Positions 1 to 22,208 of a DNA stretch of 47,403 nucleotides are shown one piece after another. The notes under the pieces are model-generated. The model made no database searches, was not told where the DNA came from, and saw only the letters and a program-made list of their open reading frames with translations. This DNA is from an uncultured Eubacterium sp. Its GTDB lineage: Bacteria; Bacillota; Clostridia; Lachnospirales; Lachnospiraceae. The position numbers and the translations under genes were made by a program. Location: positions 1-47,403 of the forward strand of contig CANDJC010000024.1 of NCBI GenBank assembly GCA_947384955.1, in the 5' to 3' direction. The first letter of the stretch is position 1. Every line of letters starts with the position of its first letter.

Positions 1-126
1 CAGACAGAAGGCGGGACACAGGGCAGTCCGCATAGTGCGGGCCAGACAGAAGAACGGACACAGGCCAGACCGTATAGTATGGGGCAGACAGAAAGCCGGG
101 CAAAGCTGCAATATAGAAATATCGAT
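1..126 (+). repeat. 42-bp tandem repeat inside the first CDS
   Basis: Two full 42-bp units (1-42 and 43-84) and the start of a third (from 85) each begin CAGACAGAA and encode 14-residue units beginning QTE. The array probably continues upstream of the window edge. Confidence 0.7.
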
Positions 127-2088
127 AGTGAAGTAAATAGAAATAAAGGTAAAGATATAGGTAAAGATATAGATGTAAATACAGGTGCAGCTGCAAATAA
201 AGATATCTATTCAGGCAGAAAAATAAATGCACATCAGGCTGCAAAGCAGAATCACGACGGCCCGGAAAACAAGGACTTGCAAAACAGACGGGAAATGCAG
301 AACCAAAAAATGGAACAGCTGCTGCAATATTTAGAAGCCAGCGCAGTGTCTGCTCAGGGAAATCAGAGTCTTCCAAGGCAGACCGGCGTGTACGGTGCGG
401 TGCAGCTTTTAAGAAAACAGACAAACAGTTTTCTGCAGGCGGATGCAGCGCAGATGTTACATATCCGCATTCATGAGGAATTTCTTCAGCCGCCAAGGGA
501 AAGCCTGTCCCAGAATTCAGCTTCCGTTCGCAAAACGGGTACAGATACTGTAAACCAGGCAGCGGTCAGCCAGGATGCTGTAAACCAGGCAGCAGTCAGC
601 CGGGATGCAGCATCACCAGGCACAGCGATGCGTCAGGATGCAGCAGTACCAGGTGCGTCAGTCAGCCAGAATGCAGCGCAGCGCGGCACGTCAGACATCC
701 TTGAGCAGGCAGCAGTGCCCGGCGCGTCAGAAACCCTGGAATATGTGAAAGCAGGAGAAAGCAGAGAAGATGCAGCAGTGTCTGGTGCGTCAGAAACCCT
801 GGAATATGCGAAAGCAGGAGAAAGCAGAGAGCAAGCGGCAGTGCCCGGCGTTTCAGAAGCCCTGGAATATGTGAAAGCAGGAGAAAGCAGAGAAAATGCA
901 GCAGTGCCCGGCGCGTCGTCAGAAGCCCTGGAATATGCGAAAGCAGGAGAAAGCAGAGAAGATACAGCAGTGCCTGGCGCGTCAGAAGTCCTGGAGTATG
1001 TGAAAGCAGGAGAAATGAGAGAGCAAGCGGCAGTGCCTGGCGTTTCAGAAACCCTGGAGTATGCGAAAGCAGGAGAAAGCGGAGAAGATACAGCAGTGTC
1101 TGGCGCGTCAGAAGTCCTGGAGTATGTGAAAGTATCGGAAGCATCCGCAGCCAGAAAGTATCCGGCAGCATTAGAAGCAGCAGTCAGCCGGGATGCGGCA
1201 GCATGGAGAGAAACGAATGGCGGATGGAGCAGGGAAGAAACACAGAATGCAGAGCAGTCTGGCGCATCAGTTACCTTAGAGTACGCGGAAATGCCCGGTG
1301 TATCAGATGTCTCAGAGCATGTGAAAGTGCCTGGTGCATCGGATATCTCAGAGCATATGGAAGCGCCCGGTGCATCAGATGTCCTAAAGCATATGAAAGT
1401 ACCCGGTGCATCAGATGTCCCAGAGCATATGAAAATACAAATACCCGGTGCATCAGATATCAGAGTGTATGCGGCAGGGCCAGCACTATCCGCAGCCAGA
1501 GAGTATGACGCAGTACCAGGTATGCCGGATATCCTTGAATATGCGGCAGTACCAGGCGCAGCAGCCAGACAGGATGCTGCGGCATGGAAAGAAGCGCAGA
1601 ACGAGCAGAATGAACAGGAGAAATCCGTTCGCAGTCCGGCCGGCAGCATGCAGGAGAAATCCGTTCGCAGTCCGGAATCCCGGATGCAGAATCTGACAGC
1701 GCGCACTTCAAAAAACAGCCGGCAGCATACAGCCGTACCGTCTGCAAAGCTGGTACATACGAAGCTGTCTGCCAGAACAGCTGCTGCCGGAAAAATGAAA
1801 AAGGATTTGTCAAAGAAGAAAGCAGAGGACGCGCAGCAAAAGCAGGCCATTCAAAAACTTGCCGGCAGTCTTCTGGATGCGGAGCGGGATTTGAAAACGA
1901 AGACAGTCCGTCTGCAGCAGCTGGAGCAAAAGCTGTCTGAACAGGAAAAGGATTTGCAGCGCCTGCACAGCAGCCATAAAAAAGCGGCGGCGCAGCTGAA
2001 ACCGTCCGTACAGCGTAGGAAGCTGCTCGAACAGATGAAAGCGGCTTTTCAGCTGGAACGGATGCGAAACGGCGCGGATAAAAGATAA
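1..2088 (+). CDS. Repeat-rich disordered protein with C-terminal coiled coil, 5' end outside window
   Basis: The frame is open from base 1, so the start lies upstream and the first internal ATG (79) is probably not the start. No known domain is recognised. The visible 695 residues are Ala/Glu/Ser/Gln-rich and hydrophilic. They hold a 14-residue repeat beginning QTE at 1-84, seven 21-residue units with the core AVPGASE..LEY.KAGES at 709-1152, five 12-residue PGASD units at 1291-1476, and two QEKSVRSP units near 1615. The last roughly 95 residues are Lys/Glu/Gln-rich with heptad-like leucines (LQQLEQKLSEQEKDLQRL), so probably a coiled coil. The gene lies directly upstream of the LysM adaptor, in the CIS operon. 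It could be a flexible scaffold, an assembly factor, or a carried substrate; function is unknown. Long antisense ORFs here are repeat artefacts. Confidence 0.75.
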   Translation, partial: QTEGGTQGSPHSAGQTEERTQARPYSMGQTESRAKLQYRNIDSEVNRNKGKDIGKDIDVNTGAAANKDIYSGRKINAHQAAKQNHDGPENKDLQNRREMQNQKMEQLLQYLEASAVSAQGNQSLPRQTGVYGAVQLLRKQTNSFLQADAAQMLHIRIHEEFLQPPRESLSQNSASVRKTGTDTVNQAAVSQDAVNQAAVSRDAASPGTAMRQDAAVPGASVSQNAAQRGTSDILEQAAVPGASETLEYVKAGESREDAAVSGASETLEYAKAGESREQAAVPGVSEALEYVKAGESRENAAVPGASSEALEYAKAGESREDTAVPGASEVLEYVKAGEMREQAAVPGVSETLEYAKAGESGEDTAVSGASEVLEYVKVSEASAARKYPAALEAAVSRDAAAWRETNGGWSREETQNAEQSGASVTLEYAEMPGVSDVSEHVKVPGASDISEHMEAPGASDVLKHMKVPGASDVPEHMKIQIPGASDIRVYAAGPALSAAREYDAVPGMPDILEYAAVPGAAARQDAAAWKEAQNEQNEQEKSVRSPAGSMQEKSVRSPESRMQNLTARTSKNSRQHTAVPSAKLVHTKLSARTAAAGKMKKDLSKKKAEDAQQKQAIQKLAGSLLDAERDLKTKTVRLQQLEQKLSEQEKDLQRLHSSHKKAAAQLKPSVQRRKLLEQMKAAFQLERMRNGADKR
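709..1152 (+). repeat. Seven-copy 63-bp coding repeat
   Basis: Seven units of 63 bp (the fourth is 66 bp, with one extra Ser codon) encode a 21-residue motif with the core AVPGASE and EY.KAGES. Units start at 709, 772, 835, 898, 964, 1027 and 1090. Substitutions alternate between units (EYVK/EYAK, RED/REQ), which suggests past expansion of a two-unit block. All length changes are multiples of three, so the frame is kept. Confidence 0.85.
1291..1476 (+). repeat. Five-copy 36-bp coding repeat
   Basis: Units at 1291, 1327, 1363, 1399 and 1441 encode 12-residue repeats of the form (V/A/I)PGASD(V/I)..HMK. A two-codon insertion (IQ) precedes the last. The PG(A/V)S core is shared with the 21-residue array upstream, so both arrays probably derive from one ancestral unit. 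Confidence 0.8.
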
Positions 2089-2135
2089 AGCAAAAAGGAT
2101 AAAGGATACAAGGAAAAGAAAGCGGGGGAGGGACT

Positions 2136-2822: not shown

Positions 2823-2900
2823 GAATCGGACTAGGAATCAGAATGGGAATCAGAATGGAAATGATAACAGGAAGAGGAAGACAGGGAGAGACAGCAGAAA
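2823..2900 (+). repeat. Purine-rich degenerate repeat in the leader of the gpD gene
   Basis: The gap holds three copies of a GGAATC(A/G)GA-like unit followed by a purine run (AGGAAGAGGAAGACAGGGAGAG) up to the ATG at 2901. It contains several Shine-Dalgarno-like tracts. Similar purine repeats occur at 2089-2135 and 17955-18107. Confidence 0.5.
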
Positions 2901-3974
2901 ATGGCGGATTTGATGAGCGCGGCATTTACTTATCAGCAGCTGGCAGACCGTTACGCGAATTTTATTGTTCCGGCTGCAAAGATTAAAGTCAACGGAATGG
3001 ACGTGCTGCGGACACATAGGCTCGTCATTCATGAAATGGAAATTTCACTGGCGCTGCATATGGCAGGAAGTGTCGTCGTGAAATTCGCCCATGTCTACGA
3101 TGAAAAAAGCCATTCGTTCGGTTCCGGCATCCGGCAGGTGTTTCCGCTTGGGACGATTGCGGAGGTGGAGCTGGGCTATGTTTCCAATACGCAGCAGGTG
3201 TTCAAAGGGTATGTGGAGATGGCCGGGGTGGAAATGGGCGAATCCGAGCTGTTCGTCGTCACGCTGATGGATGTCAGGCGCCTGATGATGGCCAGCGGGA
3301 AAAAATCCATCCTTCATAAAGTGAGCAATTATTCGGATGCCTTCACAGCCGTGATGGAAAGCTACCGGCCGCTGTGCAGGCTGAGCGTGGATGCGACCAG
3401 CGACGGGCTGGAAGAACCGGTCCCGCAGGCAGAAAATGATTATGAATTCGTGGAATACGGGCTGATTCAAAACGGCCGGGCAGACCGGGAATTTCTTGTA
3501 TGCGGGGATACCGCATATTTTCGAAAGCCGCAGAAAGTAAAGGCCCCGGTGATGACGCTGCGTTATGGGCGCGAGCTTTTGTCGCTTTCGGTATCGCACT
3601 GCTATCAGGACTTGAAAATCCGGGTCCTTGGCGTGGACGACGCAGAACAGGAGATTCGGGCAGAGGAAAAGGTTACGGCAAATATGCCGCTCAAAAAGCT
3701 GATTATCCCGCCTCCGGTGCATCTTGTGACAGACCCATACGCCGATACGCAGAGCAGGGCGGATACGCGTGCGCAGGCGGAAGCCGGGAAAGTAAGCATT
3801 TACGGCAGCATCGGCCACGGCACCACGCTCGGACTGCCGGAAATCGTGCCGGGGCGTTTTGTCCAGATTGAAAATGTGGATGCATTTGTGAATAAAAAAT
3901 TTTATGTTACGGAAGTCACGCATACTTATACGGATGATACGTTTGTGACACAGTTTGAAATAGGAGGCTGCTGA
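2901..3974 (+). CDS. Baseplate hub protein, phage late control gpD / VgrG N-half-like
   Basis: This 357-residue protein has the pattern of the gpD family (T4 gp27-like hub). An N-terminal beta domain holds LVIHEMEISLALHMAG and a (VELGYV..TQQVFKGYV) segment. The C-terminal part ends GRFVQIENVDAFVNKKFYV, TEVTHTYTDDTFVTQFEI, typical of these hubs. In CIS particles the hub trimer closes the inner tube and carries the spike. The next gene, one base downstream, encodes the spike, so a VgrG/Afp8-type function is split into gpD and gpV genes. Confidence 0.85.
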   Translation: MADLMSAAFTYQQLADRYANFIVPAAKIKVNGMDVLRTHRLVIHEMEISLALHMAGSVVVKFAHVYDEKSHSFGSGIRQVFPLGTIAEVELGYVSNTQQVFKGYVEMAGVEMGESELFVVTLMDVRRLMMASGKKSILHKVSNYSDAFTAVMESYRPLCRLSVDATSDGLEEPVPQAENDYEFVEYGLIQNGRADREFLVCGDTAYFRKPQKVKAPVMTLRYGRELLSLSVSHCYQDLKIRVLGVDDAEQEIRAEEKVTANMPLKKLIIPPPVHLVTDPYADTQSRADTRAQAEAGKVSIYGSIGHGTTLGLPEIVPGRFVQIENVDAFVNKKFYVTEVTHTYTDDTFVTQFEIGGC

Positions 3975-3975
3975 T

Positions 3976-4764
3976 ATGGCGATGCTTGGAAATCTGCTGG
4001 CGGCACAGTATAAAGGAACGGCAGCGGGGGTCGCAAGAGGGACGGTAAAAGAAAACTGGAATGAAAAACATCCCGGCATGGTTAAGGTGGAAATGTTTCT
4101 GGGAGAACGGGGAAAGCGCATGACAGGCTGGGTTCCGGTTTTGACGCATTACGCCGGAGACGGCTACGGGGCCTACTGCCTGCCGGAAACGGGCGAGGCT
4201 GTCGTCATTGCGTTTGAGCTTGGGGATATCAGCTGTCCGATTGTAATCGGCACGCTCTGGGATAAAAAGAACAGACTGCCGCAGGCAACGGCAAATGAGA
4301 AAAATACCGTGAAGCGTCTGCTGACAAAGGGAAACTGCGAGATTGTCTGCAGCGAGGAGCAGGGAAAAGAAAAAATTACCGTTACCACGCCGTCTAAGCT
4401 GTCGGTCAGCCTGGAGGATGAGAAAAAGACCATCTGCCTCAGGGACGAAAAAGGAGAAAATGCAGTTACGCTGGACTGTGCCAAAGGTACCATTGAAATC
4501 TGCGCAAAAACAAAAATCATGCTTAAAATCGGACAGGACGAAGCGGTGACGGTTGACAGCAGCTCGATTCGAATGAAAAGCCAGGATATTAAACAGGAAG
4601 CGCAGAATGCGTTTTCGGCAGACGCGCAGAATATAAAGCTTTCGGCAAAAGCAAATGCCGGCATGGAAGGAAAAGCCGGGACAGAAATCAAATCCGGCGG
4701 CCCGGTAAAGGTAAATTCCAGCAGTGTCCTGGAAATCAAAGGCAGCATGGTAAAAATCAATTAG
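3976..4764 (+). CDS. CIS spike protein, gpV / VgrG C-half-like
   Basis: The protein has 262 residues. Residues about 18-100 form the OB-fold of gpV/gp5 proteins (HPGMVKVEMFLGE, GWVPVLTHYAGDGYG, PETGEAVVIAFELGD, CPIVIGTLWDKKNRLP). From about residue 115 the sequence alternates short hydrophobic strands with Lys/Ser-rich turns up to KGSMVKIN, as in the triple-stranded beta-helix of spikes. It presumably trimerises on the gpD hub. The sharp tip is probably supplied by the DUF4280 PAAR-like protein at 17548. The ATG lies one base after the preceding stop. Confidence 0.87.
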   Translation: MAMLGNLLAAQYKGTAAGVARGTVKENWNEKHPGMVKVEMFLGERGKRMTGWVPVLTHYAGDGYGAYCLPETGEAVVIAFELGDISCPIVIGTLWDKKNRLPQATANEKNTVKRLLTKGNCEIVCSEEQGKEKITVTTPSKLSVSLEDEKKTICLRDEKGENAVTLDCAKGTIEICAKTKIMLKIGQDEAVTVDSSSIRMKSQDIKQEAQNAFSADAQNIKLSAKANAGMEGKAGTEIKSGGPVKVNSSSVLEIKGSMVKIN

Positions 4765-4785
4765 CAAAGGCAGGGGAGATACCGC

Positions 4786-5205
4786 ATGAAAGAGGATGCA
4801 AACGCGTTCCTGGGCCGGGGATTTCAGTTTCCGGTACAGACAGACGAGGCTACGGGCAGGATGAAGACATCCAGCTATGAACAGGATATCAAAGAAGCGA
4901 TTTACATTATCCTGATGACCAAAAAAGGCGAGCGGATTATGAATCCGGCCTTTGGCTGCGGGGCGCATGATTACGTCTTTGATACCATGGATTATACGAC
5001 GCTCAGCATGGTGGAGCGCGAGGTGCGCGAAGCGCTCATACTCTGGGAACCGCGGATTACAGACTTAAATGTGAATCTGAGCATAGATGAAAAACGGGAC
5101 GGATGTGTCCTGATTGAGATTGACTATGTGGTGCGTTCCACGAACAATCCTTATAATCTTGTATTTCCGTTTTATTTAAACGAAGGCTTTGGAGAACATG
5201 CATGA
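4786..5205 (+). CDS. Baseplate wedge protein gp25-like (GPW/gp25 family)
   Basis: The protein has 139 residues, the usual size for gp25. It shows family features: a stretch leading to GERIMNPAFGCGAHDYVFD (the conserved ERxMxPxFG-type motif), then LWEPRITDLNV and a final strand VLIEIDYVVRSTNNPYNLVFPFYL. gp25 nucleates sheath assembly at the baseplate. AGGGGAG precedes the ATG. It overlaps the next gene by four bases (ATGA), which implies translational coupling. Confidence 0.92.
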   Translation: MKEDANAFLGRGFQFPVQTDEATGRMKTSSYEQDIKEAIYIILMTKKGERIMNPAFGCGAHDYVFDTMDYTTLSMVEREVREALILWEPRITDLNVNLSIDEKRDGCVLIEIDYVVRSTNNPYNLVFPFYLNEGFGEHA

Positions 5206-8174
5206 CAGAGGAATCTATGATACAGCTGGCAGAAGAAATCGAAAAAAAAGCCCGCAGCTACGTGCCGGAATGGCGTTTTACAGCCGAAAATCCGGATATC
5301 GGAAGCGCCCTGGCGCTGGTTTATGCCCGGATGATGTCAGGACTGGTCAAAAAGCTGCAGGGTATCCCGTATAAAAACCAGATTGCATTTTTTAATATGC
5401 TGGATGCGCAGCGTCTGGCGGCAGTCCCGGCCGGGGGATTTGTATCGTTTTGCCTGGCGGACGGGGAAACACAGGGGGAAGAAGTCCCGGCTGGCACAAG
5501 CGTGCTGGCTCCGGCGCAGAGTGCGCAGGAAGAAACACTGTCGTTTGAAACGCTGGACGATATTTATGTCACGCCTGCGCAGCCGGACTGCCTGCTGCAG
5601 GTATCGGCGCAGAAGGATTTTATCGGCGTATCGGCGCTTTCGGACTTGCAGGGCGGTGTATGTTTATTTGGCTGCCACGGTGAAAACCTGCAAAGGCACA
5701 GGCTGTATTTCTGCCATGACGACGCGCTGTCTATAACAAGAGAAGGGCGCATTACCGTGGATTTCTGGCTGCGCGGGCAGGCTGTGGAGGAGAGCTTTGT
5801 GCAGATGATGGCAGACCCTTCCATGGCGGAATTTTCTTACAGCTGCGAAGACGGCTACCGTCCGTTTGCTTCCGTCGAAAGAAACGGGAGCCGTCTGGTG
5901 TTTGTGACTGGAAAGCAGGAGCCGCCGTTTGCGCTTCGAGAGGAAGGCGGCAGGGAAAGCTTCTGGATTTGCTGCGAGATGAAAAAGCTGGAGCCGTCTG
6001 ACCGTTTCCGCGCGGATTTGATACAGCTTGCATCGGGCTGCGGACGGCATGCGCCGGACTGTATCTATGCGGACGGGACGGAAGTAACAAAGGACGCGTT
6101 TTTTCCGTTCGGAGAGCAGTTTTCTGATTATAACGAGGTTTATTTTTTAGCGGACGAGGTGCTTCGCAAAAAGGGAGCTGTCGTGACGCTTTCGTTCAAT
6201 CTGGATTTTGCGAAAATCCCGCTTGATTTTGAAAAGACGCAGATTCAGTGGGAGTGGATTATGCACCGCTCAGACTTTAAAACAGACATGGAATTTGATG
6301 TGACCATTGAAGAAACCGTGTGGGAGTATTTCAACGGGTATGGCTGGACTTCTTTATTTGAGGATAACAGCTATCACGATTTGTTTTCGGCTAAAAATAA
6401 AAAGCCCGGCCGTTTCGAAAAAATCAGCTTTGTGTGCCCCGGCGATTTATCGCGGATTCTGGTCGGCGCGCAGGAGGGCCTTTACATACGCGCAAGGATT
6501 TTAAAAGCGAATAACCTGTATAAGCAGAAAGGATATTATATTTCTCCGGTTTTAGACCATGTGCAGGTACAGTATGATTATGCGCAGTCTCCGGTAAGCC
6601 CGCAGCAGATTTTAATTGAAAATAACTGCACAAAGCAGCTGTATCAGCCCGCGCGGGACGCCTTAAAACCGCTGTTTTTCGGGATTCCCAAAGAACAGGA
6701 GGCGCTGTATCTGGGATTTGAACAGGCGCCTTATGGAGGCCCGGTGAAAATGCTGTTTGAGTTTTTCAGGCGGCTGGAACCGGAGAGCCGGACGCTGTAC
6801 TGGGAATACAGCGCGGAACGTAAGGCCTGGCGCGAGCTGGACTTAGCAGACGAGACAGAGAATATGTCGCGCACAGGCATTGTCACGATGATGGGCAGTG
6901 AGGATTTTGAAAAACGGATGCTGTTCGGGCTTGAAAAATACTGGATACGGATACAGAACGTGACGGCAGCTAAGCTGGAAGAAAAGGAAGAAATCCCGCT
7001 GCCGTGCCTGTGCGGATTTTATATGAACACCGTGCGTATCCGCCAGAAGGGCCGGATGCAGGAAGAATATTTCCATATGGATATTTATGAGGAAAACAAG
7101 CATTATCCGCTGCTTTCTGGCGGAATTATCTCCTGCAGGCTCTGGGTTGATGAAACCGGCAGCCTGAGCCGGGAGGAAATGAAGGAGTTAGAAAAGCAGG
7201 GCCGCCTGTATATCGAATACAGGCAGGATGCGGAGCCTGAGCGGGTCTGGGCGGAATGGACAAGGACCGGGGATTTTTTAAGCTCCAAAAGCTCTGACCG
7301 GCATTATCTGCTCGACAGCCATGCGGGCGTTATCCGCTTTGGAAACGGCCGGGAAGGCAGGATTCCGCCGGCATCCAGGAAGGACAGCATCAGGGTCCTG
7401 TATGAAACGGGCGGCGGGGAGCAGGGCAATGTAAAAAAAGGCGCGGTAAACCAGCCCGGCGGGGAGCCTGGAAGGATTCAGTCGCTGTTTAATCCCAAAG
7501 CTCTGACCGGAGGCAGCGACGCGGAGCCTTTAAAAGCGGCGCTGCGCAGAAACGCGGCCCTTTTGCGTCATCAGAATATGGCTGTGACACAGCGGGATTA
7601 TGAGCAGATTGCGCTGGAAGCCTCCAGGAGCCTGAAACGCGTGAAGTGCTTCTGCGGCCTGGATGATCTGGAGCGAAAGAAAAGCGGCGCTGTGACGCTC
7701 GTGCTGCTGCAAAAGGATTTCCGGCATGCTCATGCCCGTTTTTATGATGTAAAAGCAGAGGTTGAAAGCTATATGAAGGATAAAATTTATACCTTTACGG
7801 CGCAGCGCGGCGCGTTTTACTGCATCCCGCCGCAGTTTGTGGAAATCTGTGTCCGCATAGAGGCCGTGGCTGAGCGTTTTGACGAGGTATTCCGCATCAA
7901 AAAGCAGATGCGGGAGCGCCTGGAGCAGTTTCTCAATCCGCTTTCCGGCGGCTTTGACCAGACGGGCTGGGAAATCGGCACAATGCCGGACAGCCTGCAG
8001 ATTCGCAATGCGCTAAACAGCATTCCGGGAGTCCGTTCGATTCGGGACGTTTATATGAGCGGTTTTCTGGGCGGGCAGAACGGGCGTACGGAAGCGGATT
8101 TGGAAGCGCTGAGAAAGAGCAGGTATATTCTGCCGGTCAGCGGGAAGCACGAGATTATGATTCGCATAAACTAG
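5202..8174 (+). CDS. Baseplate J-like wedge protein 1 (Afp11-like)
   Basis: The protein has 990 residues. The start resembles large CIS wedge proteins (SYVPEWRFTAENPDIGSALA). The J-like core lies at about 700-810, with VIRFGNGREGRIPPA, a GGSDAEPLKAALRR stretch and MAVTQRDYEQIALEASRS. The C-terminal part (LEQFLNPLSGG, GWEIGTMPDSLQIRNALNSI) is typical of J proteins. J-like proteins form the wedge ring that triggers sheath contraction. It is larger than phage P2 gpJ but in the range of eCIS Afp11-type proteins. Confidence 0.88.
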   Translation: MTEESMIQLAEEIEKKARSYVPEWRFTAENPDIGSALALVYARMMSGLVKKLQGIPYKNQIAFFNMLDAQRLAAVPAGGFVSFCLADGETQGEEVPAGTSVLAPAQSAQEETLSFETLDDIYVTPAQPDCLLQVSAQKDFIGVSALSDLQGGVCLFGCHGENLQRHRLYFCHDDALSITREGRITVDFWLRGQAVEESFVQMMADPSMAEFSYSCEDGYRPFASVERNGSRLVFVTGKQEPPFALREEGGRESFWICCEMKKLEPSDRFRADLIQLASGCGRHAPDCIYADGTEVTKDAFFPFGEQFSDYNEVYFLADEVLRKKGAVVTLSFNLDFAKIPLDFEKTQIQWEWIMHRSDFKTDMEFDVTIEETVWEYFNGYGWTSLFEDNSYHDLFSAKNKKPGRFEKISFVCPGDLSRILVGAQEGLYIRARILKANNLYKQKGYYISPVLDHVQVQYDYAQSPVSPQQILIENNCTKQLYQPARDALKPLFFGIPKEQEALYLGFEQAPYGGPVKMLFEFFRRLEPESRTLYWEYSAERKAWRELDLADETENMSRTGIVTMMGSEDFEKRMLFGLEKYWIRIQNVTAAKLEEKEEIPLPCLCGFYMNTVRIRQKGRMQEEYFHMDIYEENKHYPLLSGGIISCRLWVDETGSLSREEMKELEKQGRLYIEYRQDAEPERVWAEWTRTGDFLSSKSSDRHYLLDSHAGVIRFGNGREGRIPPASRKDSIRVLYETGGGEQGNVKKGAVNQPGGEPGRIQSLFNPKALTGGSDAEPLKAALRRNAALLRHQNMAVTQRDYEQIALEASRSLKRVKCFCGLDDLERKKSGAVTLVLLQKDFRHAHARFYDVKAEVESYMKDKIYTFTAQRGAFYCIPPQFVEICVRIEAVAERFDEVFRIKKQMRERLEQFLNPLSGGFDQTGWEIGTMPDSLQIRNALNSIPGVRSIRDVYMSGFLGGQNGRTEADLEALRKSRYILPVSGKHEIMIRIN

Positions 8175-8180
8175 CCGTGC

Positions 8181-10319: not shown

Positions 10320-10342
10320 CTTTGGGAAAGGAAGGACAGACA

Positions 10343-11497: not shown

Positions 11498-13239
11498 TGA
11501 AAAATTCCAAGTATTTTCCGTTTGAAAGAAATAAATATTTTTACGGCAAGCTGCTGTCCGTGGATGATTTCGAGCTGGAACAAAGGTATGCCAATAACAA
11601 GCGCAGGATGACAAACCGCTTCCTTTTGGGCTGCGGCGTGGCGGCGGGCATGTATGTGGTGCGCATTGATGAAAAAACGATTTCCCTGGAAAGCGGTTTT
11701 GCGCTGGACGGCCTTGGAAGGGAAATTGTCGTGGATGCTCCGGTTATCCGCAGGCTGTCTTTGCTGGAGGGCTACCGCGCCAGTGTTGAAAACAGCGGGC
11801 ATGATTATGTCTATTTATGCATTGACTATGAAGAAACGTATGCGGAGCCGGTACATCATATCGCAGGAACTGCGCCCGCGGAAGGAGGCGGCAGCGAATT
11901 TAACAAAATAAAAGAAACCTACCGCCTGTATCTGACAGATGCCGCACCGCAGGAGGAAAATCTGGACAAACGGGCGCTGTTTGAAAAGCGCCAGGTGCTT
12001 TACTGCGCGCAGGGCATTTCCATCCGGCTCGTGATACCCAGATATGTAAAGGCTGGCACCGTGGCGGAAATCCGCCTGGAAATCGAAAACGTGACTAAAA
12101 AATATCTGTCCTTTTCCTGTGAAGCCCTGTTAGAATGCATGGACCAGGAAGGCCAGCCGTCCGTCAGCATCAATTTTAACGAAGCGCAGCATGAAAAGAC
12201 AGGCAGCTATGTGCTGCGCTATCCGCTTACAGCGGCGGACCTGCCGGGAGCGGAGGCTTCGGTGCAGATTAACGCAAAGAGCATACAGCTGTATTTAAAT
12301 AAGGAAGCGATGGAGTATGATGCGGGCAGCCTGAATGTTTCCGTGCAGATTGTCGGCGGCGATATCCGAAACCATGTCGTGCAGGATTACTACCGAAGGG
12401 CAATGGAGCGCATCGTCAGCAGCAGCCAGACGCAGCGGCTGTATCTGGCCAAAATCTATCTGCTGCGCACATATGACGAGGGGGAGGACGCCTGTGTGAT
12501 TGACCGGGTGGAAAACCTGCCGTTTCACCAGTATATTCTGAATCAGAACCTGAGCTTTGCGCTGCACCAGCTTGCGATGGACGGAATCGTTTCTGACAGC
12601 CGCTGTCAGAATCCGGTTTCGGGCAGCGGCGGCGCACAAAGCGGGAAAACGGAAGGAATGGTCCGGCTTTCCCAGGGCAGTTACTGGCTGGATTTAAACG
12701 GCGGCGGCCAGCGGGGCGACCGCTTTTTAAGCGGGGAGATTTCCCACGGGTTAGGCCTTGGCCCGGCTGTGGTAAAGGCAGGGCTCGAGGATGAAAACGG
12801 AGCCGTTACCTATGGCTCCAGCGAGATTTTTCCCGATATGGAGCTGCTGCTGGAGTTAGCCGTGCGCGTGTTTCCGGATAAAGGGACGTTTCAGATTGCA
12901 GGAAGGCTGCGCGAGCAGGTGATTAAAAGCGGGGTCATGGTACACTGGGCCGCGGTCATGAACGAAGCGGAAAAAGCGGCGAAGAAAATGACCAGAAGGA
13001 TTTTTATCAAACCGGGCATCTTAGAGCTGGCTGTGCGCGAGAACCACTATCTGGAAGCGGTATGCACCAATATGGAGGATAAGACTGTGGAATGGAGCAT
13101 ACAGGCGCACGGCGGCAGCATCAGTGCAAACGGCATGTATACCGCGCCGAATTTACCGGGCGTTTATGAGATTACGGCGCAGAGCGCGGCTTATCCGGAA
13201 GTAAAGGCTTCTATTTTTGCGGTGGTACGGGAGGCATAG
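11497..13239 (+). CDS. CIS-associated protein with C-terminal Ig-like domain
   Basis: The protein has 580 residues with no assigned enzymatic function. The N-terminal 95 residues (FERNKYFYGKLLSVDDFELE, NRFLLGCGVAAGMYV, FALDGLGREIVVDAPV) resemble a conserved module I associate with phage-tail-like clusters of Firmicutes and cyanobacteria; this is from memory and unverified. The middle is beta-rich. Residues about 505-580 look like a bacterial Ig-like domain (SANGMYTAPNLPGVYEITA). Position after tail protein I suggests a peripheral baseplate, fibre or adhesin-like part. An alternative is a fibre-attachment connector. Confidence 0.6.
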   Translation: MKNSKYFPFERNKYFYGKLLSVDDFELEQRYANNKRRMTNRFLLGCGVAAGMYVVRIDEKTISLESGFALDGLGREIVVDAPVIRRLSLLEGYRASVENSGHDYVYLCIDYEETYAEPVHHIAGTAPAEGGGSEFNKIKETYRLYLTDAAPQEENLDKRALFEKRQVLYCAQGISIRLVIPRYVKAGTVAEIRLEIENVTKKYLSFSCEALLECMDQEGQPSVSINFNEAQHEKTGSYVLRYPLTAADLPGAEASVQINAKSIQLYLNKEAMEYDAGSLNVSVQIVGGDIRNHVVQDYYRRAMERIVSSSQTQRLYLAKIYLLRTYDEGEDACVIDRVENLPFHQYILNQNLSFALHQLAMDGIVSDSRCQNPVSGSGGAQSGKTEGMVRLSQGSYWLDLNGGGQRGDRFLSGEISHGLGLGPAVVKAGLEDENGAVTYGSSEIFPDMELLLELAVRVFPDKGTFQIAGRLREQVIKSGVMVHWAAVMNEAEKAAKKMTRRIFIKPGILELAVRENHYLEAVCTNMEDKTVEWSIQAHGGSISANGMYTAPNLPGVYEITAQSAAYPEVKASIFAVVREA

Positions 13240-13266
13240 CGGATATGCGCCGGGAGGATACAAAGG

Positions 13267-14148
13267 ATGCTTATAGAAACTTATGACAAGGTGTATGCGG
13301 TCATCCGGCATTATTATGCCGGAATGCAGACGGACATTTATGTATGCAGATGCAGGTCAGACCATCGGCTTTATGAAATCATCCGTGTGAGGGATAAAAA
13401 AATCACGGAAAAGATTATGGAATTTATCAGCGCGCAGAAAAGCAGCCGAAAGTTTTTGGATTTAACCGATGCATTTGTATATGAAGGAGACCTGCATGTC
13501 GTATTTTTTCATACAGAGGGCATGACGCTGGAAAAAAAGCTGGAGCAGCCCTGTACGCTGGAGGAACGCATGGAGACTGGCAGAAAGCTGTTAGAGCGGA
13601 TGATTCTGTCGGGACAGCCGTATTATTTTCAGTGCCAGTGTCTGTGCCCGGAACATATTCTGGTGACGGATTCACTGGATATCCGGTTCTGGTATACGCT
13701 GCAGGATGCAGAAAATTACAGTTCTTATACACAGCAGCAGGCGGCGGCATATTTATACCGTGTACTGCAGCTTTTGTCTGCGCCGGAACTGCAAAAAAGA
13801 GGACTGAAGCCTTTGGTATTTTATTTCCGGCGCCTGAAAGAAGTCCAGCAGCTGGATTATGTGAAGGAATATGAACAGTATACAAAGACCTTTGAAGAAA
13901 TCCGAAAGATTCCAAAAGAGGAGCTGGAGCTGTCAGAAAGTTTTATGTACCACGTGTGGGAGCTTTTCAAAAGCGTGCGCAGGCGGATTCAAAAAATGAT
14001 GCTGGCGCTGATTTTTACCGGGGTGTTTTTTTATATGATTTACTGCATTTACTGGTCTTTCCGGGCGAAAGGGTATGCGCGGCATTTTGATGCGATAGGG
14101 ACGATGCAGATGGATGAGGAGCAGACATACGATGAAATTTACAAGTAA
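13267..14148 (+). CDS. Tail-anchored cytoplasmic protein of unknown function, possibly kinase-fold-like
   Basis: The protein has 293 residues. About 240 soluble residues precede one hydrophobic helix at about 244-265 (MMLALIFTGVFFYMIYCIYW) flanked by RRRIQK, so a cytosolic N-terminus is likely. The soluble part has a layout loosely like a protein kinase (N-lobe strands, then RKLLERMI, CLCPEHILVTDSLDIRFW), but no HRD, DFG or clear lysine motif is visible; a pseudokinase fold is a guess. GGGAGGA precedes the ATG. It overlaps the MORN gene by 17 bases, and the pair may form a membrane complex of the CIS. Confidence 0.6.
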   Translation: MLIETYDKVYAVIRHYYAGMQTDIYVCRCRSDHRLYEIIRVRDKKITEKIMEFISAQKSSRKFLDLTDAFVYEGDLHVVFFHTEGMTLEKKLEQPCTLEERMETGRKLLERMILSGQPYYFQCQCLCPEHILVTDSLDIRFWYTLQDAENYSSYTQQQAAAYLYRVLQLLSAPELQKRGLKPLVFYFRRLKEVQQLDYVKEYEQYTKTFEEIRKIPKEELELSESFMYHVWELFKSVRRRIQKMMLALIFTGVFFYMIYCIYWSFRAKGYARHFDAIGTMQMDEEQTYDEIYK

Positions 14149-16168
14149 TTTTTCAGCCTCTTTTTTTACATTCGCAAAGAAAATGAGAAGGATTCTCACA
14201 GCGCCGTTTGAAACAGCCTGGCGCAGGTTTCGGCAGAAAACAAGTCCGGGCAGTATCTTAAGCAGGGTCAGTGAAGATGTCCGCACAGAGGTTAAGGATA
14301 TCGTAAAAAAGCCCAAATCGATTGAAGAATATGTCCTGGTCGGGGACCATTTTGCCGCGAAAAAGCTGCTTTATCTGCTGGGCATTTTAATCATGCTTCT
14401 GATTATTTTTCTGGTAACGGCTGTGCGGCCGCTGATCATTGCGCGCTGGTTTACGAAAACAATGGTGATTACGGACGAAGCAGTCGCGAATTATACAGGC
14501 AGGGTGCGGCTTTTAAGCGAGCGGGATAGAAAAACCGTGCTTTTTACCGGGCGGCTGGAAGACGGCGTGATACAGGGGGACGGAAAGTCTTATGACTATG
14601 ACGGCAGGCTTGTTTATGAGGGCGGATTCGCGGATGACCAGTATGACGGCGAAGGCAGGCTGTACCGCAGCGGGCGGCTGCTGTATGAAGGCGCATTTGT
14701 AAAAAACGAATACGAAGGCAGCGGCATTTTGTACCAGGATAACGGAAAGGTGCTGTACCGGGGCAGCTTCTTGCAGGGGCAGAAGGAAGGGCGCGGAAAG
14801 TATTACGATAAAAGCGGCGGGGTCATTTATGACGGACAGTTTCAAAGCGATGCGTTTATGACCGGGTATGCGAAGCTGTCTGATAAAGAAGACGGGCTGG
14901 TGTATGAAGGATATATGAAAGAGGGCGCCTATGACGGGGAAGGGAAGCTGTATGAAAAAGGCGCGCTTTTGTATGACGGCGAATGGAAGGAGGGTGTATA
15001 CGACGGGGAAGGAAAGCTGTACCGGAAAGGAAAGCTTCGTTATGAAGGGGGCTTTGCAGCCGGAGAATATGACGGTACCGGGAAAAAATATACCAAAAGC
15101 GGGAACCTGCGTTATGACGGAGCATTCGTTCAGGGTGTATTTGACGGCAGAGGGACGCTGTACTTTTACGATTCCGGCTTTCCGAAATACAGCGGGAGCT
15201 TTGCGGATGGAAAATTCGAGGGCAAAGGAAAGCGCTATACCAGACAGGGGTATCTGCGCTATGACGGCGGTTTTGCGGCCGGGGAATATGACGGCAGAGG
15301 GACGCTGTATTTTTACGATACGCAGGTACAGAAATACGACGGAACGTTTGCGGCGGGAAAGTTCGAGGGAAAGGGAAAGAAGTATACAAAGCAGGGGTAT
15401 CTGCATTATGACGGCAGCTATGCCGCAGGAGTTTATGAAGGCAGCGGCGAGCTGTATTATTACGATACGGAAACGGTCAAATACCGGGGAGAATTTGCCG
15501 CAGGAGTTTATGAAGGAGACGGGCGCAAATATAACCAGGATGGGCGCAGGGTTTATAAAGGCAGCTTTTCCAAAGGGAAAAAAGAAGGCAGCGGAAAGGA
15601 ATACGACGCGGTAACCGGAAATGTGATTTATGACGGCATGTTTTCGCAGGGGAAATATTCCGGCGCGGGAAAAGCCTATACGGCTGAAGGAATTCTTTTG
15701 TATGACGGGAATTTCGAAGAAGGGGAATACTACGGAGCCGGGAAACTGTATGAGGAAACAGCGGGAACGCTTTTGTATGACGGGAATTTCGAAGAAGGGG
15801 AATACCACGGAGCCGGGAAGCTGTTTGATGAGACGACGGGAAATCTGGTTTATCAGGGAGATTTTTACCAGGGGAAGCGCGAGGGGCAGGGAAGTGCGTT
15901 TGACCCGGAGGCGCAGGCGCTGATTTATACCGGAGGGTTTCGACAGGGACTGTATGACGGGAACGGAAAGCTGTATAACAGCCAGGGTATTTTATTATAC
16001 GACGGGGAATTTCTGCTGGGCGTTTATAACGGATCCGGCACGCTGTACCAAAGAGACGGGCAGGACCCGGTAAAGGGGACATTTGTAAACGGCGAACTGA
16101 AAGCGCAGGAGGAGCCGGAGGAAGAAAAGGATAAAAAAGAAGATGTGCCGCAGGAAGGGGGAATCTGA
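14132..16168 (+). CDS. Membrane-anchored MORN-repeat protein
   Basis: The protein has 678 residues. An N-terminal basic cytoplasmic segment precedes one transmembrane helix at about 79-103 (LLYLLGILIMLLIIFLVTAV). From about residue 135 to 655 there are about 21 tandem MORN-type units of 22-25 residues (YDG.F..G.YDG.GKLY), ending in an acidic tail (EEPEEEKDKKED). MORN arrays form long beta-hairpin rods that bind lipids or proteins; YwqK-type proteins share the fold. The start ATG 14132 has GAGGAG ten bases upstream; ATG 14114 is in frame but lacks a site. Units 17 and 18 are nearly identical in DNA. Inferred role: membrane scaffold or anchor for the injection machine. Confidence 0.78.
   Translation: MKFTSNFSASFFTFAKKMRRILTAPFETAWRRFRQKTSPGSILSRVSEDVRTEVKDIVKKPKSIEEYVLVGDHFAAKKLLYLLGILIMLLIIFLVTAVRPLIIARWFTKTMVITDEAVANYTGRVRLLSERDRKTVLFTGRLEDGVIQGDGKSYDYDGRLVYEGGFADDQYDGEGRLYRSGRLLYEGAFVKNEYEGSGILYQDNGKVLYRGSFLQGQKEGRGKYYDKSGGVIYDGQFQSDAFMTGYAKLSDKEDGLVYEGYMKEGAYDGEGKLYEKGALLYDGEWKEGVYDGEGKLYRKGKLRYEGGFAAGEYDGTGKKYTKSGNLRYDGAFVQGVFDGRGTLYFYDSGFPKYSGSFADGKFEGKGKRYTRQGYLRYDGGFAAGEYDGRGTLYFYDTQVQKYDGTFAAGKFEGKGKKYTKQGYLHYDGSYAAGVYEGSGELYYYDTETVKYRGEFAAGVYEGDGRKYNQDGRRVYKGSFSKGKKEGSGKEYDAVTGNVIYDGMFSQGKYSGAGKAYTAEGILLYDGNFEEGEYYGAGKLYEETAGTLLYDGNFEEGEYHGAGKLFDETTGNLVYQGDFYQGKREGQGSAFDPEAQALIYTGGFRQGLYDGNGKLYNSQGILLYDGEFLLGVYNGSGTLYQRDGQDPVKGTFVNGELKAQEEPEEEKDKKEDVPQEGGI
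15698..15816 (+). repeat. Recently duplicated MORN unit pair
   Basis: About 41 bases starting TTTTGTATGACGGGAA near 15699 recur near 15773 with only a couple of changes, in frame within the MORN array. This points to recent expansion by unequal recombination. The remaining units are more diverged. Confidence 0.65.
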
Positions 16169-16756
16169 ATGGCGGATTATACGATTATATCGGATATTGG
16201 CAGTGCGTTAGTGCGTATTCTGCGGGAAGGCATGGTGCCGGATGTGATTCCGAATGCGGATGCGGTCGGATTGTGCAGCCCTTCCGACAAAGGGGATTTT
16301 GTGCTCGGGCTGTATCTGTATGATATCCGGGAAAGCGAGGAAGTGTTTGAAAGCAGCATGCGCATGTCCGGGCAGAACCAGATGCGTTACCCTTCCAGGT
16401 ACCTGAATCTGTTTTATATGCTCACAGCGTATTCCATGAGCGATATTAAATTCCGCTCATTTGAAGAACACCGGATTCTGGGCCGGGCCATTCAGGTACT
16501 GCAGGACCACCCGGTTTTGGATGATATTTTGCATGAAAACAGCGCGGCATCCGACCGCTATCCGGTAAGGATAGAGCAGCAGCGGCTGGAAAACGACGAA
16601 AAAATGCGGCTGTGGAATATGCCGAATGTGCCTTACAAGCTGTCGATGTACTATAAAGTCTCTCCGGTCGAGCTTTCCTCCGCCCGTACAAGAAAAGTGC
16701 CAAGAGTCCGCAGAGTGGACATGGATTTTGTGGAAATGGAAAGAAACGGGAGGTGA
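16169..16756 (+). CDS. DUF4255 (Pvc16/Afp16-like) tail terminator protein
   Basis: The 195-residue protein matches the DUF4255/Pvc16_N family: an N-terminal helix-strand segment (IISDIGSALVRILREGM), then LYLYDIRESEEVFE, RYLNLFYMLTAYS, EEHRILGRAIQVLQDHPVLD and YKLSMYYKVSPVELSS. In Afp/PVC particles this protein caps the distal end of tube and sheath. Its presence strongly marks the operon as CIS rather than prophage. The ATG directly follows the stop of the MORN gene. Confidence 0.85.
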   Translation: MADYTIISDIGSALVRILREGMVPDVIPNADAVGLCSPSDKGDFVLGLYLYDIRESEEVFESSMRMSGQNQMRYPSRYLNLFYMLTAYSMSDIKFRSFEEHRILGRAIQVLQDHPVLDDILHENSAASDRYPVRIEQQRLENDEKMRLWNMPNVPYKLSMYYKVSPVELSSARTRKVPRVRRVDMDFVEMERNGR

Positions 16757-16760
16757 AGCT

Positions 16761-17546
16761 ATGGCAGGAGGAATCCGCGAACGGGTCAGCGTGTGGGTGT
16801 CGCTAGTCCTTGCGGCAGTCGACGATTTCAGCGGCAGGCCGGCTGAAAGAAGCCTGCTGCACGTCTGGATGGAAGGAGCGCCGGAGCCGTCCGCAAAAGA
16901 AGGCGGGTATTATGTTTTTACAAATATCCATACATCCTGTGCCCGGATTCACCTGGAAGGGCCGGTGTTCCAGAAAAAGGAGATTGTGCTGGATGAAAAA
17001 CAGCTGGCGCAGTATGAAGGAACCGTCATGAAGGTGCGCCTGCTCCCGAACCGCTCATATCCGGTGCCGCGCGGGACGACCTGCGTGCAGGGATATGCGC
17101 CTGCGCATGCGACGGTCATGGCTTTTGATATGACGATGGAAAACCCGCTCAGGCTGCTCTATGCGTATGAGGCGGGAAGCGGGGAAATCAGCATTTATCA
17201 TCCCGAAGATATGGACCTGGAGGGCAGGGTATTCTGCATTCAGGATAAGCCAGAAAAAAAGCGGGAGCTGCTTCGCATTCTGTCGCAGTCAGAGGCAGAA
17301 AAGAGCAGATACCGGCTGGCCGCGCCGCTTTCAGGCTCTTACAAAAAAATCGGGACAGTCCTGTTTCCGGTTCTGGAAGCAAAAGCGGATAAAACCGGGG
17401 AATTTTATATGCCGGCATCGGGTATTCGCGGGGAAAAAGCGGTTTTTGCGTTCTGGCTGGAAGGAGAAGAGGAGCGCCGGATAGAAGCGGAATTAATCAG
17501 CGGCAGGCATAACAGCGTTGATATTAGAAAGAGAGCGGGAAAATAA
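16761..17546 (+). CDS. Beta-rich CIS-associated protein of unknown function
   Basis: The protein has 261 residues from ATG 16761, preceded by GGGAGGTGAAG; an open frame upstream (from 16626) only overlaps the DUF4255 gene. Residues about 10-110 (DDFSGRPAERSLLHVWMEG, GYYVFTNIHTSCARIHLEGP) resemble prealbumin/carboxypeptidase-regulatory-like folds that accompany DUF4255 genes. A second beta segment lies at about 185-250. No catalytic motif is seen. It may decorate the cap or the PAAR-like tip. Four bases separate it from the preceding stop. Confidence 0.55.
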   Translation: MAGGIRERVSVWVSLVLAAVDDFSGRPAERSLLHVWMEGAPEPSAKEGGYYVFTNIHTSCARIHLEGPVFQKKEIVLDEKQLAQYEGTVMKVRLLPNRSYPVPRGTTCVQGYAPAHATVMAFDMTMENPLRLLYAYEAGSGEISIYHPEDMDLEGRVFCIQDKPEKKRELLRILSQSEAEKSRYRLAAPLSGSYKKIGTVLFPVLEAKADKTGEFYMPASGIRGEKAVFAFWLEGEEERRIEAELISGRHNSVDIRKRAGK

Positions 17547-17547
17547 A

Positions 17548-17937
17548 ATGGGACAGTGTGCGTGTGCAGCAGGAGTTTTACAGTGTTCTTTCGGAATGGC
17601 GCCGTCGGGCTTTATGGTGCTGCCGGATAAAATGATACTGACGGAAAATAAACCGATGGCAAATATTATGGATTATAAGCCGATGGTCAACATTCTGCCG
17701 TTTGGGATGTGCCAGTCGCTGTCGAATCCGACGGTCGCGGCGGCAACGGCAGCGGCGTTTGGCGTTTTAACGCCCATGCCGTGCATCCCGGTGACAGCAG
17801 CGCCGTGGACGCCGGGCAGTCCGACCGTGCTTGTAAAAAACATGCCGGGGCTGACAGACAGCTGTAAGCTGATGTGCAGCTGGGGCGGCATCATACAGTT
17901 TCAAAATGCCGGAACAGTAAAGGTGCAGATGCCTTAG
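17548..17937 (+). CDS. DUF4280 PAAR-like tip protein
   Basis: The 130-residue protein fits DUF4280 closely: an early Cys-Ala-Cys (GQCACAAGVLQCSFGMAPS), a MDYKPMVNILPFGMCQSLSNP stretch, LTPMPCIPVTAAPWTPGS, and a closing CSWGGIIQFQNAGTVKV. DUF4280 proteins are PAAR-like and probably sharpen the spike or adapt effectors. There is no C-terminal toxin extension, so effectors would be separate proteins. The ATG starts one base after the preceding stop. Confidence 0.9.
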   Translation: MGQCACAAGVLQCSFGMAPSGFMVLPDKMILTENKPMANIMDYKPMVNILPFGMCQSLSNPTVAAATAAAFGVLTPMPCIPVTAAPWTPGSPTVLVKNMPGLTDSCKLMCSWGGIIQFQNAGTVKVQMP

Positions 17938-17954
17938 CAGACAGTATTTTTTAG

Positions 17955-18107
17955 AAAGAACAGAAGGAACAGAAAACCACAAAAGGCACAGAAGGAATAG
18001 AAAACACAGAACAAGCAGAAGAAGCGGAAGAAACAGAAGGAATAGAAGAAACAGAAAGCACAGAAAACAGAAGGAACAGAAAGTACAAAAAACAGAAAAA
18101 GCACAGA
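17955..18107 (+). repeat. Low-complexity purine-rich repeat before the cyclase-like gene
   Basis: The stretch is built from degenerate ACAGAAGGAA(C/T)AGAA units (ACAGAAGGAA occurs four times) with almost no T. It is open in the frame of the downstream gene back to a TAG at 17952-17954 but has no start codon of its own. It reads as Lys/Glu/Thr-rich sequence. It may be a slippage-expanded leader or decayed coding sequence. Confidence 0.6.
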
Positions 18108-18155
18108 AATATGATAAGCATAGGAAGCACGGGAAACATGGAGAGAGTACAGAGC

Positions 18156-19220
18156 ATGATAAGCACAGTGAGCCTGGAAGAAATCAAATGGCTGGAATGG
18201 CTCCGGGCGGGCATAAATCCCGGCCTGTTCGCAATAGCGGCTGTATGCGCGGCCGCTGCCCTGATTTATATGTGGAGAAATTATAAGCTGGAAGAACTGA
18301 TTGTGGAATACCAGAAAAAGGCAAAAAAGGAGTCTGAGCCGGGAAAAGCCGCCGAGACAGAAACCGCAGGCATTTATCCGCGCATGGTTCCGGCAGAACT
18401 GCTGGAAATCCTGCAGATGAAAGAACCGGAGGACTTTTCGGCGGGAAAGCACAAATACGTGCAGGCGGTCAATATGTCGGTCAACACGAACGAATTTTCA
18501 AGGCTGATTCATTCCATGGGAGCGCGGGAGATGTTTGCGTTTATCAACCGTTTTCTGGAACGTGCGGTTCCTCTGATTTATGAGGCCGGAGGAATGGTGG
18601 AGACGTACCGTGACGCCGGCATGACGGTTTTATTTTTAAAGGATTATGAACAGGCGCTTGTATCAGCCGTTACAGTCTGCGAGCTTTGGAATGAGCTGTC
18701 GCAGCAGATGCCGCAGTATGACAGCTTTACCATCGGCATGACCTATGAGAATGCGATTGCCGGAGCTGTGGGAAACAGCCAGCGGATGGAGCTGTCTGTA
18801 TTATCCGCGGAATCCGGCGGGCTGTCGGACTGGCTGCGGAGCATTGCGGCCAGGTATTATGCGAGAATCCTTGTGGCGGATTCCTATGCGGAGCTGATTT
18901 CGGACTTTCAGCAGAAATTTCATACGCGGCTTTTAGGCTATGTGTATATCCGGGATACAGACAGCATCTGCCAGATTTACGACGTGTTTGACGGAGATGC
19001 CTGGGAGGTGCGCAGCCTCAAGCGCCAGACAAAAATTCTGTTTGAAAAAGGCGTTTCCCTGTATGCGCAGCAGCAGTACGGACAGGCCAGGCAGTATTTT
19101 ATCGAAGTGCTGAAAACCGACCGGTCTGACCGGGCAGCGAAAGAATATATCTATCGCTGCGAGCAGCGGCTTCAAAATCCCGGAAAAGAGGGAGACATTT
19201 ATATGGAGCGTTACGGATGA
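18156..19220 (+). CDS. Membrane-anchored degenerate class III cyclase-homology protein with TPR-like tail
   Basis: The protein has 354 residues from ATG 18156 (GGAGAG ten bases upstream); ATG 18138 and 18111 are in-frame alternatives. One N-terminal helix lies at about 23-40 (GLFAIAAVCAAAALIYMW). A cyclase-homology domain follows at about 100-240: VNMSVNTNEFSRL at the metal-site strand, YRDAGMTVLF at the second site, and GMTYENAIAGAVGNSQRMEL. The first metal Asp of the F.DI.GFT motif is replaced by Asn/Thr, and the VN.AARL catalytic stretch is missing, so activity is doubtful. Residues 294-340 look like one or two TPRs. It is the last gene of the CIS operon; its stop overlaps the convergent phosphatase-like gene. 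Confidence 0.65.
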   Translation: MISTVSLEEIKWLEWLRAGINPGLFAIAAVCAAAALIYMWRNYKLEELIVEYQKKAKKESEPGKAAETETAGIYPRMVPAELLEILQMKEPEDFSAGKHKYVQAVNMSVNTNEFSRLIHSMGAREMFAFINRFLERAVPLIYEAGGMVETYRDAGMTVLFLKDYEQALVSAVTVCELWNELSQQMPQYDSFTIGMTYENAIAGAVGNSQRMELSVLSAESGGLSDWLRSIAARYYARILVADSYAELISDFQQKFHTRLLGYVYIRDTDSICQIYDVFDGDAWEVRSLKRQTKILFEKGVSLYAQQQYGQARQYFIEVLKTDRSDRAAKEYIYRCEQRLQNPGKEGDIYMERYG

Positions 19221-20845: not shown

Positions 20846-20894
20846 GCAGGCCTCCTGTAATAACGTTTGATTCTGTAACAACAGTATTCGTTTT

Positions 20895-22188: not shown

Positions 22189-22208
22189 AAACAGGGAGGG
22201 CAGGAGGA

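Follow-up and report, generated by a model that had tools for sequence, protein, structure and literature searches.

A conserved pseudokinase–MORN–receptor module that may tether a clostridial contractile injection system to the membrane of its producer

Where does a contractile injection system (CIS) work when the operon that builds it also encodes membrane proteins? The question is raised by the stretch of DNA analysed here (the window), 47,403 nucleotides that make up one entire contig (CANDJC010000024.1) of an uncultured Eubacterium sp. of the Lachnospiraceae (assembly GCA_947384955.1, a genome in 271 contigs). It carries the baseplate half of a CIS and, in the same operon, genes for three membrane proteins with one helix each, as a preliminary description had noted and the hydropathy scan bears out. 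That description went on to suggest that the particle is fixed to the producer's membrane by a tail-anchored protein plus a MORN rod. We find that the three genes, for a membrane pseudokinase (13267), a MORN protein (14132) and a shortened receptor (18156), are near-universal in this CIS lineage, and from their sequences we judge it fairly probable, though far from certain, that the CIS docks on the producer's cytoplasmic membrane and is triggered there. Domains were identified with Pfam and NCBIfam, helices by hydropathy scan and open reading frames (ORFs) with a simple caller. The three genes and the baseplate gene that precedes them are as follows.

11497..13239, + strand: Cis13-like protein (CIS13_fam NF053767, E 8.4e-24; a partial match, 84.5 bits against a cut-off of 370)
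13267..14148, + strand: membrane pseudokinase with a predicted cytoplasmic kinase-like head, a helix at residues 244-262 and a short outer tail (from profiles, hydropathy and charge)
14132..16168, + strand: MORN protein with a short inner N-terminus, one helix and MORN repeats predicted outside (PF02493, E 2.7e-20)
18156..19220, + strand: shortened receptor with one helix, a cyclase-like domain without the catalytic metal residue and a TPR-like end (from homologues and hydropathy)

Related loci were collected using the neighbouring Cis13 protein as the query and, because this neighbour is neutral, the membrane genes themselves were not selected for. The 80 loci named here are the best 80 of 351 matches, a set in which distant relatives are under-sampled. 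The pseudokinase gene follows Cis13 on the same strand in 79 of the 80, with a median gap of 16 bases (in L120 and L133 it is only partial), and the sole locus without it ends inside Cis13. The MORN gene is present in 78, both misses being contig ends. Where at least 9.9 kb of downstream sequence is available (52 loci), the pseudokinase and MORN genes are found in all 52 and the receptor gene in 49. An even draw of 250 genomes from the family contained 22 with the CIS_tube protein, and 21 of these carry the pseudokinase beside Cis13, in three of them (G174, G176 and G208) on a different contig from the tube gene. The exception, G138, has a tube match broken by two stops and no CIS gene in the surrounding 20 kb. 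At least seven of the 80 loci overlap with genomes of the family sample, so that the two counts are not independent. The genome search with the pseudokinase profile (A3, built from 71 homologues) matched 56 genomes, 20 of them with CIS_tube; it missed one carrier, G104, which was found in further searches. The remaining 36 were taken to hold ordinary kinases, as was the case for all seven checked with Pfam. The carriers are largely Lachnospiraceae and other Clostridia, many of them from animal guts according to their record titles, and the nearest named relatives of the window are metagenome-assembled genomes of Lachnospiraceae. Cultured carriers include Sporofaciens musculi WCA-9-b2, Petralouisia muris NM01_1-7b, Anaeromicropila populeti 743A and Bacilliculturomica massiliensis (loci L119, L112, L069 and L066). 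One record, L107, is titled Bacteroidales bacterium, yet holds a typical Lachnospiraceae CIS; it is probably a mislabelled metagenome-assembled genome, a class of record in which taxon labels are unreliable.

The preliminary description had proposed looking for the membrane genes in homologous clusters and had named their absence there as a refutation of its idea. The comparison did not refute it: besides being near-universal in the lineage, the genes were not found in the fibre-bearing CIS of the same class. Sampling was widened to 291 genomes of the class, of which 11 have CIS_tube, and 348 of the phylum, of which 14 do. Five more pseudokinase carriers came from these (G469, G407, G511, G737 and G870), together with a second kind of cluster. 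The latter (G383, G448, G488, G838 and the second cluster of G274, G274B) belong to extracellular CIS (eCIS) of Clostridia that share the core genes, but they encode long fibre-like proteins, most with an S74 chaperone (five of the six tested), and the stretches fetched contain none of the three module genes. The cluster of G446 has a baseplate of the fibre group and is cut off. The link between the two kinds is Cis13. Ten of the 11 fibre-like proteins align with columns 8-118 of the 583-column Cis13 profile (that of G274B has no match, and the G838 fibre matches in one further small piece), so the first ~110 residues of Cis13 are common to the tail fibres of the fibre-type systems. The window itself has no recognisable tail-fibre gene, and Cis13 has no match in a phage collection at E up to 1e-3. 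Of the other clusters in the wider sample, G717 and G630 have a Cis13-like protein that matches only the first ~155 columns and no module; G616 is cut inside Cis13; in G835, which is also cut, not one of the three genes is seen; the 8 kb of G699 contain no Cis13; and G536 and G865 look like prophages.

A tree of the first baseplate J-like protein (J1; 43 rows) separates the two kinds. All 25 module-bearing clusters, together with G616, lie on one side of a branch with support 100/100, and six fibre-type clusters group together at 100/100. Two clusters that have the MORN and receptor genes only lie with G835 just across the module branch (91/86). Ten rows belong to no group and were not counted with any: G616, G835, G717, G630, Nostoc, Haloferax, Paenibacillus, Rhodococcus and two from Streptomyces. 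The row of G446 (G446b) is placed with the fibre group, its fibre gene being cut off; G174 and G699 have no J1 row, the prophage-like G536 and G865 were left out and G828 was not included. The module is thus inherited together with the baseplate, and a single gain or loss is all that the separation needs.

The first protein of the module, 13267, is more than a tail anchor, as its cytoplasmic part appears to be a pseudokinase. Its helix is shared by all 74 homologues compared, with a score that is always at least 1.78. The 20 residues before the helix contain on average 5.66 lysines and arginines, against 1.89 after it, with the charge before the helix higher in 63 of the 74 and lower in four, an excess that by prediction places the head inside the cell. 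No Pfam family fits the window protein. Against the PDB, profile A3 finds PAK kinases best (PAK1, E 0.004); RASSF5 chains come next, starting at E 0.013, in the company of more kinases and a few proteins of other kinds. Compared with an alignment of 25 kinase loci from five genomes, whose ORFs were all verified by phmmer (25/25), it matches at 98.0% (E 2.3e-13); with a less clean kinase set, containing at least one wrong-frame row (L269), the figure is 93.3%. Eight unrelated families score no higher than 1.4% against A3 and 4.7% against the kinases. The kinship is remote, since only four of the 71 members match the Pkinase model singly. The aspartates of the HRD and DFG motifs are catalytic residues of protein kinases. 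When the 71 homologues are aligned to a true kinase, the HRD aspartate position holds C, A, V, I, L, M or G in every one, and that of DFG holds N in 42 and D in five. By its profile, then, 13267 is a membrane-tethered pseudokinase of the kinase superfamily that has lost its catalytic aspartates. Outside the membrane only ~30 residues are predicted, with an invariant IG pair in the family.

A pseudokinase-plus-helix layout is also that of EssB/YukC of type VII secretion, from which 13267 differs in its short outer tail and in having no match to YukC (PF10140) at E up to 1; the genome of the window has no such match either, and a search of 41 class genomes gave a single one, below the cut-off. 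A match in G120, which has no CIS, was considered as an EssB in a type VII locus and rejected: the protein proved to be an ordinary membrane kinase next to DNA polymerase III (1529 residues). The family does extend beyond CIS: a relative of 406 residues in G446 (L264:11338-12558, - strand, E 2.2e-21), which combines a helix with an outer PKD domain, lies outside any CIS.

The MORN protein 14132 has its single helix at residues 86-104 of the ORF from 14114. The starts given for this gene and for 18156 in the preliminary description fit better than those of the longest ORFs, each having a purine-rich stretch ahead of it and relatives that start nearby. Among 74 homologues the lysine and arginine count averages 4.43 before the helix and 1.77 after it, and is higher before it in 70 and lower in two. 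By the same charge argument the MORN repeats are predicted to lie outside the cell. The MORN rod of the earlier proposal is thereby retained as a single-helix MORN protein, but it would point outward and would not be an internal strut. The 68 complete homologues, fusions included, are 413 to 1108 residues long, with a median of 20 repeat motifs in a range of 11 to 41; in the window protein 25 motif matches follow one another at a spacing of mostly 23-25 residues. At ~1 nm per MORN repeat, the rod would have a length of the order of a Gram-positive wall.

Four loci (L072, L073, L076 and L130; L076 is cut by the contig end) carry the pseudokinase and MORN proteins fused in one gene, in which a pseudokinase head is followed by a single helix with the flanks of that of the MORN protein, and then by MORN repeats. 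The fusions suggest that the two proteins, where separate, work together, and their architecture agrees with the topology predicted for both. In a sister CIS group the module is followed by a signal-anchored protein of ~700 residues that matches the TolC family OEP (L182:10109-12271, G180; also in L184, L186, L190, L178, L222, L146 and L265). Of eight tested, six pass the Pfam threshold (best E 1.5e-11), and the match could be a coiled-coil artefact or the protein a wall conduit.

The third protein, 18156, has one helix at residues 34-52 of the ORF from 18111. In 33 relatives the receptor gene encodes 555 to 950 residues, and the long forms looked at have outer stretches with weak, sub-cut-off Cache matches, a HAMP domain and, in some, a Guanylate_cyc match. 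The window protein has a weak TPR match and is without the outer part and HAMP; by comparison it is a shortened form of a sensor–HAMP–cyclase-like–TPR receptor. The place where longer relatives encode the outer sensor part is occupied in the window by a purine-rich repetitive spacer (17938-18155). Class III nucleotide cyclases have a motif with a first metal-binding aspartate. In the corresponding column of the receptor alignment, the six commonest letters (46 of 51 rows) do not include D and, with this aspartate missing, the domain probably relays shape instead of making a messenger. Since 18156 looks like a shortened sensor, the module has the appearance of a trigger as well as an anchor.

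What the short receptors lack may be supplied by their neighbours, which in the window are the following.

19211..20935, - strand: SpoIIE-type phosphatase with membrane helices and an outer stretch (PF07228, E 2e-28)
20947..22188, + strand: substrate-binding protein (PF04392, E 4e-13)
22185..24524, + strand: MFS protein with an extra N-terminal part, paired with the preceding gene (PF07690, E 3.7e-21)

Among the 80 loci, 20 short and 28 long receptors are followed by at least 2 kb of sequence; 12 of these short forms, and none of the long ones, adjoin a SpoIIE-type phosphatase with helices (p 1.8e-6). Of the remaining eight short forms, six have a substrate-binding/MFS pair or a long MFS protein; the window holds both the phosphatase and the pair. 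A SpoIIE-type phosphatase adjoins the CIS in 13 of the 23 complete short-receptor loci. The pair of a substrate-binding protein and an N-extended MFS protein recurs beside the CIS in L060, L062, L065, L068, L070, G679 and G835, and long MFS proteins in L066, L067, L074 and G174, so that 20947 is likely to be part of the sensory neighbourhood of the CIS. The exchange is not strict outside the 80 loci: G149, G174 and G407 combine a long receptor with a SpoIIE-type sensor, and G679 a long receptor with the substrate-binding/MFS pair.

These genes can be associated with a CIS that is probably whole. The left end of the operon is cut off in the window, which is a complete contig. The sheath half of the system terminates another contig of the same genome (C69, genome G000), which carries the sheath, tube and AAA ATPase genes. 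The last 28 bases of C69 are identical to those that open the window, and this sequence is unique within each of the two stretches. Gene order across the break matches that of relatives. Taken with the genes of C69, these observations indicate that the CIS gene set is probably complete in the genome; sheath, tube, AAA ATPase, gpV, gp25, J-like and DUF4255 genes, the set of the eCIS lineage, are all present in the two contigs. The baseplate set recognised earlier in the window is supported by Pfam and NCBIfam, with gpD weak in the window and clear in a relative. The other genes of the operon are given below.

1..2088, + strand: 3' part of a low-complexity ORF with no Pfam family; a long ORF lies at the same place in relatives, and the 5' part ends C69
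2136..2822, + strand: CIS_tube protein (PF19266, E 8.7e-31) with a weak C-terminal LysM (E 0.036)
2901..3974, + strand: gpD-like hub (weak in the window, E 0.073; the relative at the same place is clear, PF05954, E 7e-11)
3976..4764, + strand: gpV-type spike (PF04717, E 2.6e-20)
4786..5205, + strand: gp25 wedge (PF04965, E 5.4e-25)
5202..8174, + strand: baseplate J-like protein 1 (J1, Cis11-type; PF04865, TIGR02243 and the tree)
8181..10319, + strand: baseplate J-like protein 2 (Cis12-type; PF04865 and TIGR02243)
10322..11497, + strand: Tail_P2_I-like protein (PF09684, E 4.6e-10)
16169..16756, + strand: DUF4255/Pvc16_N protein, cap type (PF14065, E 7.7e-32)
16761..17546, + strand: protein of 261 residues without a family match; 58 of the 80 loci have it
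17548..17937 (ORF from 17518), + strand: DUF4280 PAAR-like protein (PF14107, E 1.3e-33)

From its place between the tube and CIS_tube genes we infer that the ORF at 1..2088 is in the tape-measure position. The assembly breaks inside this same repetitive ORF in two genomes of the genus (at the start of G076:C35 and the end of G000:C69). Small eCIS_core proteins were seen in three relatives: one (L042:9145-9507, G022; PF13699, E 2.4e-12) lies just upstream of the ATPase gene, and homologues lie near the clusters of G149 and G104.

On the directly observed gene content and order, near-universal conservation, co-inheritance with the baseplate, pseudokinase–MORN fusion and loss of catalytic motifs, a sequence of events may be built. 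The baseplate arm Cis13, which in related systems bears a target-binding fibre, would meet the membrane pseudokinase on the inner face of the membrane; as Cis13 retains the head of a fibre but no fibre, and its gene is almost always followed by that of the pseudokinase, a grip of one on the other is the simplest reading. The pseudokinase would pair with the MORN protein to form one complex through the membrane, its rod directed outward into the cell wall. The receptor, full-length in relatives of 18156, would pass an outside signal to this complex and so release contraction; in the window the SpoIIE and substrate-binding/MFS neighbours may help the short receptor. Firing would then be directed out of the cell across the wall, in the manner of a type VI system. 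Such firing at neighbours, as in haloarchaea, we regard as quite possible without holding it to be the probable outcome. The fuller picture, a receptor-gated, type VI-like machine of Gram-positive Clostridia that has taken its own path from eCIS, with the fibre arm turned inward on a pseudokinase, a MORN rod spanning the wall (joined in the sister group by the signal-anchored protein with TolC-like coiled-coil matches) and exchangeable outer sensors gating fire at neighbours, is offered as a tentative proposal.

The idea of membrane fixation fits the conservation of the genes in this lineage and their absence from the fibre-bearing clusters, and the 13267–14132 fusion fits a joint anchor. Several observations weigh against docking and outward firing. 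The receptor is missing in three of the 52 loci with enough sequence. In G511 and G870 the pseudokinase has no helix (the MORN protein keeps its own), and in G274A and G679 the MORN and receptor genes are present and no pseudokinase was found (in the whole genome of G274 and in ~40 kb of G679). The charge rule is broken by the four pseudokinases and two MORN proteins noted above, and the helix of the weakest MORN homologue scores only 1.14. No gene for opening the wall was identified.

Several known systems resemble this one in part. The type VI secretion system docks through a TssJ/L/M-type membrane complex. Docking on the producer's membrane, for the window system only proposed, is the point of likeness; Pfam scans of the window's membrane proteins found no family of that complex, the rest of the genome not having been searched. 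Thylakoid-anchored CIS are likewise anchored in a membrane. The best plasmid match of J1 is a Nostoc plasmid CIS of similar gene content, which from genus and gene content we take to be of this type; it differs in having no pseudokinase, MORN or sensor match. A gene annotated as carboxypeptidase regulatory-like stands there at the place matching 16761, and the 16761 profile has no match to it. The three module profiles likewise find nothing in the fetched stretches of Haloferax larsenii, Paenibacillus, Rhodococcus and two Streptomyces CIS loci. The haloarchaeal CIS work in the type VI mode: by the available text of PMC11566945, particles of Halogeometricum borinquense were seen docked on the cytoplasmic membrane, and Bacillota are the nearest relatives of these CIS by Cis11. 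Both have an eCIS-type gene set in a cell with one membrane; the haloarchaeal anchor candidate differs in having six helices (PMC11566945). In Streptomyces, the membrane protein CisA, encoded just downstream of the baseplate genes, is required for contraction and function (available text of PMC12237407). CisA too is a single-pass membrane protein encoded beside the baseplate and needed for firing (PMC12237407, PMC10066040, as far as available), but in the description given there its N-terminus is disordered and its outer domain resembles substrate-binding proteins. As described, the type VI membrane complex, the haloarchaeal six-helix protein and CisA differ from the anchor candidates found here.

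Streptomyces also supplies the strongest alternative, in which cytoplasmic particles respond to stress by engaging a CisA-like membrane adaptor and act on the producer's own membrane, leading to death or a developmental switch. The module would then be a stress receptor with its adaptor, and nothing would cross the wall. The requirement for CisA, whose gene lies where 13267 lies here (PMC12237407, available text), and the lack of a recognised tail-fibre gene in the window favour this explanation; however, neither Streptomyces locus has a match to the pseudokinase, MORN protein or sensor, and a rod of 11-41 repeats outside the cell suggests a reach past the membrane, although CisA has an outer domain as well. 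We consider it unlikely, while a serious contender. It is improbable that the membrane genes only control the expression or assembly of an ordinary released eCIS. The receptor and SpoIIE genes do look like signalling proteins, and linked regulators occur in other eCIS (PMC8213781, available text), but the pseudokinase and MORN genes follow Cis13 within the structural operon, and the fusion and the loss of the module where fibres occur point to a physical role. That the proteins are cargo, effectors or immunity proteins is very improbable, for although effector genes are often at the 3' end of eCIS operons (PMC8213781, available text), the order of these genes, unlike that of variable cargo, is kept across many genera and between the baseplate and cap genes.

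Docking and triggering at the producer's membrane thus remains the explanation that we prefer. A metagenome survey found human-gut CIS to be predominantly from Bacteroidota, and Firmicutes or Bacillota are never named in its main text as available (PMC12210884); the available main text of the 2021 eCIS survey lacks the words MORN, cyclase and transmembrane (PMC8213781). A literature search, judged mostly on titles and the openings of abstracts and with subscription papers mostly outside it, returned nothing on Bacillota CIS membrane proteins, a CIS pseudokinase or a CIS MORN protein. Membrane-docked firing has been described for Gram-negative bacteria and, recently, for haloarchaea (PMC11566945, available text). 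The clusters compared here point to a choice in evolution between a fibre and the membrane module at one and the same baseplate arm, and the conserved module, with its predicted outer rod and its receptor, provides concrete candidate genes for membrane-docked firing in these Clostridia.

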